Below are positions 37,104 through 48,527 of a stretch of DNA of 58,273 bases, piece after piece (position 1 is the stretch's first letter; each line of letters begins with the position of its first letter). A program made the position numbers and the translations under genes. Source of the stretch: Bacteroidota bacterium (lineage in GTDB: Bacteria > Bacteroidota > Bacteroidia > JABEUT01); the NCBI GenBank assembly GCA_013285805.1, contig JABDGY010000005.1, positions 1 to 58,273 of the forward strand, written 5' to 3'. The notes under the pieces are model-generated. The model did not search any database, was not told the DNA's origin, and worked only from the letters and a program-made list of their open reading frames with translations.

Positions 37104-37242
37104 TTGCTAAAATTAAAAAACTGTTTGTAATTCTCAGGGCTAAAGCCCACAAGTATCATGTTTTTGTAACCCCAGCCTTAAGGCTGGGGTTAATCAATAA
37201 ATATTTCCAATGGCTTCAGCCATGACAAATCTGCCTGGAAAC

Positions 37243-41957: not shown

Positions 41958-43541
41958 CTAACGCGGGGCCGCGTATTTACCTTTTGGCTCGGCTGCAATA
42001 GTTAAGTGCTCTTTTGGCTCTTTGTATGCAGTACCTTTTTGTTCATGCGAAGGCATTCCTTCGGAAAATGCCTCTTTAAGCACTGCTTGCAATAATTGTT
42101 CTGCCTGTTTTTGGCTTTGAGTAATACTTTGTTCTAATTCATTACAATAGGCCATTAACTGCTCTATTTTAGCAACTATACGCTGTTGTTCAGGAAGTGG
42201 AGGAAGCGGAATTAATAATGAGGTAATTTGCCCTTGGTTAATTGAGGCTTGCCCTGTCATTTTTTTAAATTTTTTGAAAATCTGATCCTTTATTATTGAT
42301 GATTGGAATAAGTAATTAATATACCTAGGCAATATCTTTGCTTCAAATAGTCTAACTCTTATATTTTTACTTTCATACACAAATACCTCATTTAATTTAT
42401 CTATATATGCTGACTTGCCAAGTAACTCAATACTATTAACTCGATTAAGAAGTAAGTCACCCGGCTTTAATGAGTAAGTTTCTATTTCAGAAATGGTTAA
42501 ACTCATCCTTTTTAAATTATGAAAACTTATTTCTCCATTCTGAATATTATACATTCTTAGGCAGGCTATTCCATCATCATTATAATACTTATCTTCTTTA
42601 TAAATTCCATTATTCATAGTTAGAACAATACTACCTAACCTACACCAAACCCAACCTTTAGGTAATTCATAAGGAATTTCATCGTTAGTGATTGGAGGCA
42701 ATGGCTTTTCCTTTTTTAGTTTGCCTTGTGCAGTAAGCTTTTCTTTCTCTGCTTTAATTCTTTTTAGTAATTCGCTTGCGGGTTCATCTTTAGGGTTTTG
42801 TGGAACAAGTTTGCCTTGCACTGCATCTTGTAATATGGCTTGGCGGAGTTTATTGATTATATCCGTTTGTTGGTGGAATTGGGCAGAAGTATTTGAAATA
42901 GATTCGCCTAATTCCTGCAGCTTCAAAATCTGTTCTTCAACCTTATCATTGAAGTACGTTTGTTTTTTTAAAGTACCATTCTTTAAATCATTAAAAAATG
43001 AGACAATTTTGGCTTGAATATTCTTTCCGGGGAATGGTAATTGCATTGCCTCAATTTGTGCATTACCTATATTCGGCTGTGCTCCACCATAACCCATATT
43101 TTTTACCTTATCTTGAATTCCTCTTGCAATCCAGTAAATATATTCCGGAATAAATTCAATCGGGTTAAGAATAGAAAACTTACCAACACGCTGATTCAAA
43201 TACAATTTACCTAAACCACTCTGAACTATTGCTAATTTCCCTATTGTTCCACCTGTCATTGCTATTATTATATCGCCCTCACTTAATTCAAATCTTTCAA
43301 ATTCTTTACTCTCTTTATAATAGCGTACGCTGGATAAATCAATTTTCTCATCTTGAAAATCAGAAATTCTAATTATAGGAATTCCAGTTGATCGATACTC
43401 TCCAGATTTAAATGAGTATCCTCCAATAATTTTAATGTGCTTAGAAATAGGCTCTATAGGGATTGTTTTTTCCAGCTCATTATTTACAATAGTAATATAT
43501 GCTGAGATATTCTTAAAGAAAACCTTTTCTCGCATTGTCAT
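41958..43541 (-). CDS. hsdS: Type I restriction-modification specificity subunit
   Basis: Two TRDs with conserved spacers; QGQITSLLIPLPPLPEQQRIVAKIEQLMAYCNELEQSI; overlaps hsdM stop by ATGA. Confidence 0.95.
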   Translation of the reverse strand: MTMREKVFFKNISAYITIVNNELEKTIPIEPISKHIKIIGGYSFKSGEYRSTGIPIIRISDFQDEKIDLSSVRYYKESKEFERFELSEGDIIIAMTGGTIGKLAIVQSGLGKLYLNQRVGKFSILNPIEFIPEYIYWIARGIQDKVKNMGYGGAQPNIGNAQIEAMQLPFPGKNIQAKIVSFFNDLKNGTLKKQTYFNDKVEEQILKLQELGESISNTSAQFHQQTDIINKLRQAILQDAVQGKLVPQNPKDEPASELLKRIKAEKEKLTAQGKLKKEKPLPPITNDEIPYELPKGWVWCRLGSIVLTMNNGIYKEDKYYNDDGIACLRMYNIQNGEISFHNLKRMSLTISEIETYSLKPGDLLLNRVNSIELLGKSAYIDKLNEVFVYESKNIRVRLFEAKILPRYINYLFQSSIIKDQIFKKFKKMTGQASINQGQITSLLIPLPPLPEQQRIVAKIEQLMAYCNELEQSITQSQKQAEQLLQAVLKEAFSEGMPSHEQKGTAYKEPKEHLTIAAEPKGKYAAPR

Positions 43542-44974
43542 TGTGGTAATTCAGATTTTATTTTAATTAAAATATCATTACTTAATTTAATTGATGAAGC
43601 AAGCATATTAATTAATTCCTCACTTGTATATTGCTTTTCCTCTTCTTTAATTGTGGGGTTCTTTATATCAAGGTTATAATTTCGTTTCCTAATTTCTTCA
43701 ATACTTACTTTCCAGGCATATTCATTCTCTACCCTTTTTTTCCACCATTTCTTTTCTAAATCAAACTCCTTTATGTTAATGGGTTTGGTCTTGTTGTAGT
43801 TCTTTACCCCTTCAGGGTAAGGGTGTTCAAAATACCATATATCCTTTGTGGGCTTACCTTTCTCAAAAAACAGCAAGTTGGTTTTAATGCCTGTATAAGG
43901 CGCAAATACTCCATTTGGCAAGCGTACAATTGTATGCAGATTGCAATCCATTAAAAGTTTCTCCTTTATTCGTGTAGCTACACCTTCACCAAATAAAAAG
44001 CCATCGGGCAAAACTACGCCGGCCCGTCCGCCATCTTTAAGTATATGCACTATTAAAAATAAAAACAAGCTCGCGGTTTCCCGTGTACGGTAAGAAAGAG
44101 GGAAATTATTTTCAACCCCGTCTTCTTCCATTCCGCCAAAGGGCGGGTTGGTTACTATAACATCTACTCTGTTAGCATTGCTCCACGAGCTGAGAGATTG
44201 CATTAGCAAATTATCATGCTCAATAGAAGGTATTTCAATACCATGCAACATTAAATTGGTACTTGCCAACATGTGGGGCAATGGCTTCTTCTCAACTCCT
44301 CGTATGCTCCTTTGCAAGGTATTTAATTTAATAGGAGAGTCAATTGTTTCGCTTTTGCGAATATGTTCAATGGCGTTTACCAAGAAGCCTCCGGTGCCAC
44401 AGGCAGGGTCAAGTATGCTTTCACCCAATTTAGGGTTCACCATTTCAACTACAAATTGGGTAACGGCACGGGGAGTATAAAACTCCCCCGCGTTGCCTGC
44501 GCTTTGCAGGTCTTTCAGTATCTGCTCGTAAATATCATTAAACAGGTGGCGTTCGGCGCCTGTGCCAAAATGAATGTCCTTGTTTATTTTATTAATAACC
44601 TGCCTTAACAGGGTGCCGTTTTTCATATAATTATATGAATCTTCGAACACACCACGCACCATTAATCCTGTGTCTTTGTTATTGCGGGGCTTTAACTCTT
44701 TAAGCGTAGGGAAAAGATTGTTATTTACAAAGCTTAGTAATTCATCCCCGGTCATTCCTTCCTCATCAGTGGCCCAATTGCGCCAGCGCAAATCTCTCCG
44801 AATGGGCGATTTATAATCCTCATCTGTTGCTTCCCAATCGTTTTCTTTTTCATCAAATATTTTCAAAAACAGCATCCAGCCAAGCTGAGATATGCGTTGC
44901 GCATCGCCATCAACACCCGCGTCTCTGCGCATAATGTCTTGAATGGATTTTATGGTAGAGGATAGGTTACTCAT
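43538..44974 (-). CDS. hsdM: Type I restriction-modification DNA methyltransferase subunit
   Basis: GNAGEFYTPRAVTQFVVEMVNP...ILDPACGTGGFLVNAIEHI...VIVTNPPFGGMEEDG. Confidence 0.97.
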   Translation of the reverse strand: MSNLSSTIKSIQDIMRRDAGVDGDAQRISQLGWMLFLKIFDEKENDWEATDEDYKSPIRRDLRWRNWATDEEGMTGDELLSFVNNNLFPTLKELKPRNNKDTGLMVRGVFEDSYNYMKNGTLLRQVINKINKDIHFGTGAERHLFNDIYEQILKDLQSAGNAGEFYTPRAVTQFVVEMVNPKLGESILDPACGTGGFLVNAIEHIRKSETIDSPIKLNTLQRSIRGVEKKPLPHMLASTNLMLHGIEIPSIEHDNLLMQSLSSWSNANRVDVIVTNPPFGGMEEDGVENNFPLSYRTRETASLFLFLIVHILKDGGRAGVVLPDGFLFGEGVATRIKEKLLMDCNLHTIVRLPNGVFAPYTGIKTNLLFFEKGKPTKDIWYFEHPYPEGVKNYNKTKPINIKEFDLEKKWWKKRVENEYAWKVSIEEIRKRNYNLDIKNPTIKEEEKQYTSEELINMLASSIKLSNDILIKIKSELPQ

Positions 44975-45002
44975 AGTTTTTTAGTATCTTTGTGTAAATG
45001 AA

Positions 45003-45164
45003 ATGCGCATGGCAAAGGTTGTAAAGATATATAAACCCACACACGAGGAAATATTGAAAAATGTTCTTGGTTCATTCGAAATTGAGAATATTAAAATTTC
45101 ATATACAACTGCCAAAAAATCAATGCAAAAAGTTCTCGATAAAATCAAAAAAGAGAACGTATAA
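45003..45164 (+). CDS. Small hypothetical ORF (53 aa) divergent from hsdM
   Basis: MRMAKVVKIYKPTHEEILKNVLGSFEIENIKISYTTAKKSMQKVLDKIKKENV*; preceded by TATCTTTG promoter-like element. Confidence 0.4.
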   Translation: MRMAKVVKIYKPTHEEILKNVLGSFEIENIKISYTTAKKSMQKVLDKIKKENV

Positions 45165-45608
45165 TTTCTTCCATTGGCTTATAGTCTTGTTAAATTATAT
45201 AGTCAGGCTTTCATGATTGTTTTTATCTTTTTCCCAATTCATTGGATTATTCTGAATATATTTTCGTATTGTTATTAAATCGTTTTCAGATTTAATAATA
45301 TGATCATAATAACGGGGTTGCCATTCAAATTCTATTTTATTAGTTGTGGCAAATGTCTTTACACCGGCTTTATATCCCCGTATTATGGAGCCAAGGTTTT
45401 TCGATTGGGGGCCAAATTTATTGGGTTGCCGTGGAGATGCAAAGTCTTGTGCCTGTGCCTTATTAATAAATAATATCCCATGAATATGATTCGGCATTAT
45501 TATAAATTCATCCAATTCAACAAATGGGAAATGTTTAGGAATGTTTGTCCAATATTGGTATGCAATATTTCCAATTTCGGTTGCCTGTAGAGACGGCCGG
45601 TTTTGTGA

Positions 45609-45634
45609 TAGAGACGCAAAATATTGCGTCTCTA
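45609..45634. repeat. Palindrome TAGAGACGCAA-AATA-TTGCGTCTCTA
   Basis: 11-bp perfect arms, 4-nt loop, inside RAYT ORF. Confidence 0.95.
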
Positions 45635-45655
45635 CGGTTCCGTTGGTGGTGTTCC

Positions 45656-45683
45656 GTAGAGACGGATGATTATCCGTCTCTAC
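45656..45683. repeat. Palindrome GTAGAGACGGAT-GATT-ATCCGTCTCTAC
   Basis: 12-bp perfect arms, 4-nt loop, inside RAYT ORF. Confidence 0.95.
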
Positions 45684-45842
45684 CACATTGCGTGTTTCTA
45701 CAATTGCAATATCACCAAAATAATGTGCCCTGTTTTTCGTGCAAATGGTTATAAAATACATGGCATTTGACCCATAATCCCAATTTTTTAGTCGGGTGGT
45801 TTCAATTCTGTATTTATTTTGAAATTTCTCCATTTACCTTAT

Positions 45843-48212
45843 TTAGGCAGTTTTATAAAGCTCATCTTCCAATTCCTTTAATGCTTTTCTAAAATGGGTT
45901 GGACCACCAAACCATTTTACAATTTCGGCAGGCGTACCCATTTGGCTTAAGGGTTCTAATTCCAATACCCTGGCACTTTCAATATTCTCAATTCCTTTAT
46001 CGGCATATTTCTCAAGCAGGGCTTCCAATACCTTCCGTGCTTGTTCGCCATATTTAGTAAAGTAATTACGTTTCTTAACGTTGTTTGCTCTTTCTTTTCG
46101 TGTAAGCGGAGGCATATCAAAAGCCACATGGCAAATCAGGTCAAAGGTATCCAAATCTTTATTTACACTTTCCTGCAATTCATCTAAAAATATACCGTGT
46201 TCAAGCAATTCGGCATGTATCTCTTGTTTCTTTTGCGCCTGGTTCCATTTGTTTATAAACTCATTTAATGAGCGGAACTCCTTTTGCAAATGCTTTTTGC
46301 TGTAATCTTTCAGCGTTTCGCTAATCAGCTTTCCGTCAACCCCATAATATTGTACCCGCTCATTCAATACTTTTACTTCAACGCCGCGCACAAAAACCTT
46401 TCTTAAACGTTGCCCGTTTTCGCCGCTTTCAATTATTTGCTCTTGCCCTAATGTTTTCACCTTTACTCTTTCCCCATCTATTTCAATATAGTCCCCCTCT
46501 TCATCTGCTTCAACAACCTGCAAAATATCACCTGCTTTTGGCTCATAAATTTTTACAGGCTCGCCATCAAAATCTTTATCGGCAAATAAATTGGTAGCAT
46601 TCCTGAAATCCATTATGGTAAAATAGTATTTGCCGTATTCTTCATTAATACGTGTTCCCCTGCCAATAATCTGCTTAAACTCAGTCATGCTTTGTATATT
46701 GGCATCAAGCACAATCAGTTTACAGGTCTGGGCATCAACGCCAGTAGTCATTAGTTTCGAGGTGGTTGCAATTACAGGGTACTTCTGTTCAGGGTCAATA
46801 AAATTGTCCAGTTCACGTTTGCCTTCATCATCATCTCCCGTAATTTTCATTATGTATTTATGGTTCTCTTTTACCAAGTCGGCATTTTCATTTGCAAGGC
46901 ACTGGCGCATGCGGTCAGCATGGTCTATATCCACGCAAAAAATTATCGTTTTATCAAAACGATTGGTGAGTTTTAAATACTCTGTAACTTTTTTTGCCAC
47001 TAACCTTGTTCTTTCTTCTATTACGAGGGTTCTGTCAAAATCGCGTGTATTATAAAGCCTGTCTTCAACCAAATTCCCTTCTGTGTCTTTCTTTCCTTTT
47101 TCGGGCCTGTAACCTTCAAGGTCTTTATCGAGCCCAATTCGCACCACCTTATATGGCGCAAGAAAACCATCTTCAATACCTTGCTTTAATGAATAGGTGT
47201 AAACAGGTTCCCCGAAATAATCAATATTCGAAATGTCTTTTGTTTCTTTAGGTGTTGCGGTTAAACCTATCTGCGTGGCAGATGTAAAATATTCCAGTAT
47301 TTCGCGCCATGCGGCATCGTCTGCGGCGCTGCCACGGTGGCACTCATCTACAATAACCAAATCAAAAAAGTCAGGAGAGAATTGCTTATAAATATTCCTG
47401 TCTTCTTCATTGCCTGTTAACCCTTGGTACAAGGCCAGATATACTTCATACGATTTATCTACTTTATGATTGCGCACCATAGTCATCTTATCGCCAAAGT
47501 ATTTAAAGTCGCCTCGCTTTGCTTGCCCTATAAGTGCATTTCTGTCGGCCAAAAACAAAATGCGTTTTTTCTTTCCCGCTTTCCATAACCTCCACGCAAT
47601 TTGAAAAGCGGTATAGGTTTTTCCAGTACCGGTAGCCATTACAAGTAATACCCTGTCATTGCCCTTGGCAATAGATTCAATAGTACGGTTAATGGCAATT
47701 GCCTGATAGTATCTTATTTCGCGTCCGACGGCTTCGTAATAATCCTGTGCGACTACTTTTTCAACTTCTAGGTGGGCAATACCCTTCAATATTTTGTACC
47801 TGCGCCACAATTCCTCAGGCGATGGAAATTCTTCTAAACTGATTTCTCTTTCCAGTGCACCGTTTACCAATGATTTGTCGTGCTCATAAAAAGCATCACC
47901 ATTGCTGCTATATACAAATGGAATATCAAGCGTTTTTGCATATTCCAATGCTTGCTGAATGCCAGCCTTAACGCTGTGGTTATTATCTTTTGCTTCTATT
48001 ATAGCAATTGGAATATTAGACTTATAATAAAGAATATAGTCGGCTCTTTTCTGCTTGCCCCGAACATGAAGCTTGCCTTTTACATAAATCCTTCCGGCTG
48101 TAAACGATTTTTCCTCCCTTACCTGTAAATCAATATCCCAACCCGCCTGCTTAATAGCAGGCGTAATATATTTAGTGCATATATCTCTTTCCGAGAGTTC
48201 CTTCTTTGACAT
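45843..48212 (-). CDS. hsdR: Type I restriction endonuclease subunit R
   Basis: MSKKELSERDICTKYITPAIKQAGWD...LLVMATGTGKTYTAFQIAWRLW...VIVDECHRGSAADDAAWREIL...LTATPKET; Met at 48212 preferred over TTG at 48260. Confidence 0.95.
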   Translation of the reverse strand: MSKKELSERDICTKYITPAIKQAGWDIDLQVREEKSFTAGRIYVKGKLHVRGKQKRADYILYYKSNIPIAIIEAKDNNHSVKAGIQQALEYAKTLDIPFVYSSNGDAFYEHDKSLVNGALEREISLEEFPSPEELWRRYKILKGIAHLEVEKVVAQDYYEAVGREIRYYQAIAINRTIESIAKGNDRVLLVMATGTGKTYTAFQIAWRLWKAGKKKRILFLADRNALIGQAKRGDFKYFGDKMTMVRNHKVDKSYEVYLALYQGLTGNEEDRNIYKQFSPDFFDLVIVDECHRGSAADDAAWREILEYFTSATQIGLTATPKETKDISNIDYFGEPVYTYSLKQGIEDGFLAPYKVVRIGLDKDLEGYRPEKGKKDTEGNLVEDRLYNTRDFDRTLVIEERTRLVAKKVTEYLKLTNRFDKTIIFCVDIDHADRMRQCLANENADLVKENHKYIMKITGDDDEGKRELDNFIDPEQKYPVIATTSKLMTTGVDAQTCKLIVLDANIQSMTEFKQIIGRGTRINEEYGKYYFTIMDFRNATNLFADKDFDGEPVKIYEPKAGDILQVVEADEEGDYIEIDGERVKVKTLGQEQIIESGENGQRLRKVFVRGVEVKVLNERVQYYGVDGKLISETLKDYSKKHLQKEFRSLNEFINKWNQAQKKQEIHAELLEHGIFLDELQESVNKDLDTFDLICHVAFDMPPLTRKERANNVKKRNYFTKYGEQARKVLEALLEKYADKGIENIESARVLELEPLSQMGTPAEIVKWFGGPTHFRKALKELEDELYKTA

Positions 48213-48527
48213 TAAGGTGGTCTTATCCTGCGAAAATATTAAATATAAAGGAACCTTCAAAAAACCTTAAAGGGGGGGTGTTAATAATAACTGCACATTT
48301 CTCTTTAATAAGGTTTATGGCTGGAGTAAATTTGCTTTGACCGCCGAAGCTTTACTTGTGCCCGCTGAAGCTTATGCGCAAGCGAGGGCGGAGGTGGTAG
48401 AGTTCTTTGAGAAAATAGGGATAAGTCTTTGCGCCCTTTGCGTGGCTGTTTGCTTTGCGTACTTTGCGGTAAAAAAAAGAAACAACACTATTAACGGGGC
48501 CGGGAAAAACATTTAAAAATGCCCAAA

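Follow-up and report, generated by a model that had tools for sequence, protein, structure and literature searches.

We analyzed a 58,273-nucleotide stretch of DNA (hereafter the window) from a Bacteroidota bacterium (GenBank assembly GCA_013285805.1, contig JABDGY010000005.1, positions 1 to 58,273), in which a gene for a REP-associated tyrosine transposase (RAYT, or TnpA_REP; REP, repetitive extragenic palindrome) contains REP-type palindromes in its own reading frame. REPs are among the commonest repeats in bacteria, and the way in which RAYTs spread them is poorly understood. The gene and the features within it are listed below; site I is the segment from the FG residues to the HuH motif, and site II extends from HuH to the conserved W.

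45195..45833, minus strand: RAYT/TnpA_REP gene, an intact open reading frame (ORF) of 212 amino acids with HuH and Y motifs
45480..45491, minus strand: HuH motif NHIH, residues 115 to 118, from alignment
45243..45260, minus strand: Y motif YIQNNP, residues 192 to 197, from alignment
45597..45704, minus strand: site-I insert, residues 44 to 79, a loop between strands 40-44 and 80-84, from alignment and model
45656..45683, no strand assigned: REP unit 1, a perfect double-foot palindrome, GTAGAGACGGAT-4-ATCCGTCTCTAC
45609..45634, no strand assigned: REP unit 2, a perfect palindrome, TAGAGACGCAA-4-TTGCGTCTCTA, with one foot base altered at 45608
45587..45600, minus strand: half unit GTAGAGACGGCCGG, for RPSLQ, interpreted as the 3' half of an older REP shared by a clade of relatives
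45689..45703, minus strand: degenerate half unit ATTGCGTGTTTCTAC, for VETRN, interpreted as the 5' half of that older REP
45604..45687, no strand assigned: REPIN-like inverted dimer of the two REP units, with 34-nucleotide arms (82% complementary) and a 16-nucleotide spacer

The RAYT identity proposed in an earlier sequence-only reading of this DNA holds. The NHIH, WQ, and YIQNNP motifs are all conserved in an alignment with relatives, Pfam Y1_Tnp matches the protein barely over its cut-off (the NCBIfam model REP_Tyr_transpos matches under its own), and the best PDB fold match of the predicted structure is 4er8, the Escherichia coli RAYT with a bound REP hairpin. Confidence in that structure, given as the predicted local distance difference test (pLDDT), averages 82 and exceeds 90 over much of the core. 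Pseudogene decay was ruled out by the intact ORF and the preservation of every catalytic motif. The product is predicted to be an HuH/Y1 single-strand endonuclease and may recognize REP hairpins with GTAG feet.

By motif and REP-type match, the gene is assigned to TnpA_REP subclass 2.4 of Quentin, Siguier, Chandler, and Fichant (2018; PMC6006769). The subclass is defined by the motifs NH[IFV]H, WQ, and YIxNNP, all present here; the REPs are of the double-foot or long GT[AG]G kind (GTAGAGACG ... CGTCTCTAC), and they lie in frame within the gene. Two typical features are missing. REP insertion in this subclass is generally between HuH and Y, a typical rather than defining place, and the main insert in the window lies upstream of HuH; in addition, no REP-type palindrome was found within 150 bp of the gene, although REP flanks (the REPtron arrangement) are typical, not universal, for RAYTs.

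All four palindromic elements of the sequence-only reading (two perfect palindromes, a half unit, and a degenerate unit) were located in frame in the gene. Together they code ∼35 added residues between YFGDI and IGNIAYQYW, slightly more than the 30 or so proposed, and alignment with relatives bears out an insertion: the distance from FG to HuH is 72 amino acids, against a modal 37 in most relatives. The structural model likewise places the insert in a loop between two strands, where the pLDDT of the palindrome-coded residues falls to ∼50 to 57, as expected of a flexible loop. The pairing of units 1 and 2 through 34-nucleotide arms, which makes an inverted dimer of 84 bp (28 codons), had been overlooked. 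The two units differ at six positions, four of which form two compensated pairs. Only four distinct palindromes with arms of ≥10 occur in the 58 kb, and the GTAGAG type is represented by these two alone, the remaining two being unrelated in sequence; as single-stranded DNA, the 146-nucleotide stretch folds with a z score of −8 relative to shuffles. This rarity and the folding score rule out chance palindromes. Site II of the same gene has a possible decayed REP (QAQDFASPRQ, 45432-45458; 70% like unit 2), but the resemblance is too weak for a claim. Separately, a palindrome unrelated to REPs, TTATTAAATC-7-GATTTAATAA, lies at 45272-45298, between the W and Y motifs.

To place this insert, we counted perfect palindromes with arms of 9 or more in 153 RAYT genes, which were picked by similarity to the window RAYT and seven relatives and come mostly from one class; the rates therefore do not stand for all RAYTs. 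Palindromes occupy the site I or site II loop in 101 of these relatives. Their density is highest at site II (3.33 per kb, 93 genes), is 0.86 per kb (15 genes) at site I, and is 0 to 0.33 per kb in other parts of the gene. The 150-bp flanks hold 2.06 and 3.07 per kb, with 0.20 per kb farther out; thus, many relatives have REP-type palindromes flanking the gene, unlike the window locus. Apart from the window gene, none of the 153 has a pair of perfect units at site I. The outer stems of internal and flanking units match within one locus in 29 of 44 comparisons, compared with 12.7% between loci, and we therefore assign the copies inside and beside the gene to a single family. In-frame self-insertion had been called unusual in the sequence-only reading; given these counts, and because it is a published hallmark of subclass 2.4 (PMC6006769), that judgment is not supported. 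In the RAYT of a Flavobacteriales metagenome-assembled genome (L062), site II holds two abutting REPs (TRLIASQQTRLIASL) that look like a tandem insertion.

Genome-wide copies were counted by pattern searches with exact arms, which diverged copies would escape. In the genome of the window, whose assembly is 60% complete, both palindrome types occur nowhere but inside its two RAYT genes. The second of these (L006, 6576-7175 on contig C9) has the palindromes GACGCCATGCATGGCGTC and GACGCGATGCATCGCGTC in frame at site II, ahead of FGPQSKNL; they code TDAMHGVSA and TDAMHRVSA and differ by one compensated base pair. The sequence-only reading had counted an absence of copies elsewhere in the genome against self-insertion, and elsewhere none were found; the reading is not overturned, however, because relatives have the same palindromes in or beside their RAYT genes. 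In three genomes that are 99 to 100% complete (G011, G123, and G365), the sole true copy of the window type sits inside a RAYT gene; for G038, G140, and G356, every copy is in, or within ∼350 bp of, such a gene. In other genomes, the copies reach 62.

Of 389 genomes, 116 have such a RAYT, and 42 of these contain the palindrome; of the 273 in which no such RAYT was found at the threshold used, 27 contain it (Fisher P = 4e-9). Those 27 genomes of the class, with closely similar GTAGAGACG palindromes, are what one would cite for an origin elsewhere, in a miniature inverted-repeat transposable element (MITE) or in the REP of another RAYT, with the product of this gene uninvolved. We regard such an origin as very unlikely, in that the palindromes gather at RAYT genes, both inside them and nearby, and have stems in common within a locus.

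A RAYT tree built with both loops left out places the window RAYT in a 13-member clade (support 99/94), basal to the other twelve (support 95/91). Site I is lengthened in all 13 members; such lengthening recurs outside the clade, and well-supported branches force at least eight changes. In the DNA of nine clade members, a conserved T-x-I-G is preceded by a REP unit for VET-[HQR]-N-x-A-S-L-Q; six members have it as a perfect unit, and in three it has decayed. In alignment, the outer half units of the window gene correspond to this clade REP, VETRN to its 5' half and RPSLQ to its 3' half, with the inverted dimer between them: GTA GAA ACA CGC AAT aligns with GTA GAG ACG CGC AAT of L050, and CCG TCT CTA CAG GCA ACC GAA with GCG TCT CTA CAA CCC ACC GAA of L042. 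Thus, the window insert is probably a nested insertion, an 84-bp inverted REP dimer inside an older, shared REP, and the site-I loop of this gene appears to have been struck twice by REPs.

An alternative is adaptation at the protein level, in which the loop VETxNxASLQ would be useful, for example by contacting DNA, and the palindrome would be a by-product. The insert is old within the clade, and of the two open phases, GTAG feet favor one (43 against 13). The loop is, however, predicted at low confidence, varies from 0 to 35 added residues with patternless middle residues, and is absent from many relatives, all of which makes adaptation of the peptide a highly improbable explanation. Stem changes point elsewhere. 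Across the nine 28-nucleotide clade units, four stem pairs are altered on both sides (eight cells), and none of 500 shuffles reached either this cell count or the covariation score, while the residue of the partner codon varies among C, Y, R, I, F, and H. Because of these paired changes and the freely varying coded residue, we conclude that the hairpin, not the peptide, is what persists at site I.

Paired changes are predicted alike by selection for function, by re-insertion, and by hairpin-templated repair. Under selection, the internal hairpin would be a cis element on which the RAYT, the ribosome, or an RNase acts in the gene or its mRNA, for autoregulation or as a self-contained traveling target. 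Besides the covariation in the clade, the compensated pairs between the two window copies agree with this, as do seven genomes in all (G000 and the six named above) with every copy in or within ∼350 bp of a RAYT gene. On the other hand, re-insertion or repair yields paired changes without functional selection, and six clade members (L043, L044, L046, L050, L055, and L060) keep an intact ORF though the palindrome is decayed or unrecognizable; its loss in some members speaks against a strict requirement. We consider a selected cis element possible but rather unlikely. Its bolder form is unlikely in our view: that in some Bacteroidota the REP has stopped being a dispersed extragenic repeat and has become a cis element within its own RAYT gene, with the hairpin kept by paired changes at the protein's cost and the RAYT acting through it on its own gene or mRNA.

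We favor RAYT-dependent insertion of REPs into tolerant loops of the transposase's own gene, to which we give a probability of roughly 0.75. It is supported by the subclass match, the palindrome densities, the stems shared within loci, the site-I clade, the excess of palindromes in genomes with such a RAYT, and the absence of GTAG feet (0 of 56) from the phase that gives a TAG stop. We directly observed palindromes in frame, their concentration at two loops, the lengthening of site I throughout the clade, and stem positions that change in pairs. The RAYT would recognize GTAG-footed REP hairpins and may duplicate or transfer them within a short range, its own gene included; in-frame insertions in either of two exposed loops would be tolerated and hence survive. 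Entry of one REP into loop I, the β-hairpin that precedes HuH, would predate the divergence of the clade, and the 84-bp inverted dimer would have entered this older unit later, in the window lineage.

Several points weigh against self-insertion as reconstructed here. The genome of the window offers no other REP copies as possible donors, though ∼40% of it is missing. The outer halves, when joined, measure 31 nucleotides where 28 are expected, so that the nesting is inexact and the exact insertion ends are not fixed. In the clade, four RAYTs (L016, L044, L055, and L060) have added residues at site I without a recognizable REP, and a single ancestral insertion therefore rests on the remaining members. 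Finally, no insertion event was witnessed, and the part of the RAYT in making these insertions, though likely, is inferred.

The window RAYT sits within a type I restriction-modification operon (41958-48260), flanked by hsdR and hsdM, and the hsdR stop is 9 bp ahead of its start codon:

45843..48260, minus strand: hsdR, type I restriction subunit, EcoAI family, above cut-off
43538..44974, minus strand: hsdM, type I modification subunit, downstream of the RAYT gene (N6_Mtase, HsdM_N)
41958..43541, minus strand: hsdS, specificity subunit (Methylase_S)

Homologs of HsdR or HsdM lie within ∼2.5 kb of 11 of the 153 surveyed RAYT loci; six of these (the window, L061, L137, L141, L168, and L207) have the order hsdR-RAYT-hsdM in one orientation and are scattered over the RAYT tree. 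HsdM homologs occur roughly once per genome, so chance neighbors should be far fewer (0.2 to 0.3% of loci by our own estimate). An empty hsd site could not be demonstrated in congeners, of which only one of ten has an hsdR homolog (36% identity), and a literature search found no papers on RAYTs adjoining type I restriction genes. A small antisense open frame on the plus strand (45000-45163), coding ...KVVKIYKPTHEEILKNVLGSFEIENIKISYTTAKKSMQKVLDKIKKENV, is located between the RAYT gene and hsdM. Elsewhere in the window, a 26-bp perfect palindrome, TAACCCCAGCCTTAAGGCTGGGGTTA (37167-37192), possibly a terminator, lies between two minus-strand genes.

RAYT genes that appear to record successive REP insertions, with an older unit still readable and stems that covary, supply natural insertion products as well as target sites. 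Genomes with REP copies solely inside a RAYT gene separate what is kept by the transposase from what is kept as a genomic repeat.

Inverted REP pairs, known as REPINs (REP doublets forming hairpins) or BIMEs (bacterial interspersed mosaic elements), were reportedly treated by Bertels and Rainey in 2011. The window dimer resembles them in having two inverted units with a short spacer; unlike them, it is single copy and intragenic, each of its units is a nearly perfect palindrome, and the 60% complete genome holds no further copies that would make up a dispersed REPIN population. With subclass 2.4, the window gene shares its motifs, REPs placed in frame within the gene, the double-foot form of these REPs (GT[AG]G ... 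C[TC]AC), and a host from the Bacteroidetes, which are among the hosts reported (PMC6006769); it differs in having a multiple, apparently nested main insert on the upstream side of HuH and no flanking REP. Intragenic GTAG/CGTC REPs have been described in many other genes by Di Nocera, De Gregorio, and Rocco (2013; PMC3733652); like the Rickettsia palindromic elements that they cite, these are short in-frame palindromes in coding genes, supposedly tolerated in loops, but their host genes are unrelated, whereas here the host is the REP-associated transposase itself. Given these two reports, the core of our finding was already known. What we add is the concentration at two loops, the clade of 13 RAYTs with a lengthened site I, the nested-dimer reading, the stem covariation, and the restriction of copies to RAYT genes in the genome of the window. 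The observation is well founded and belongs to a published phenomenon, here at a less usual insertion site that is common to a small clade, with a probable nested REP dimer.
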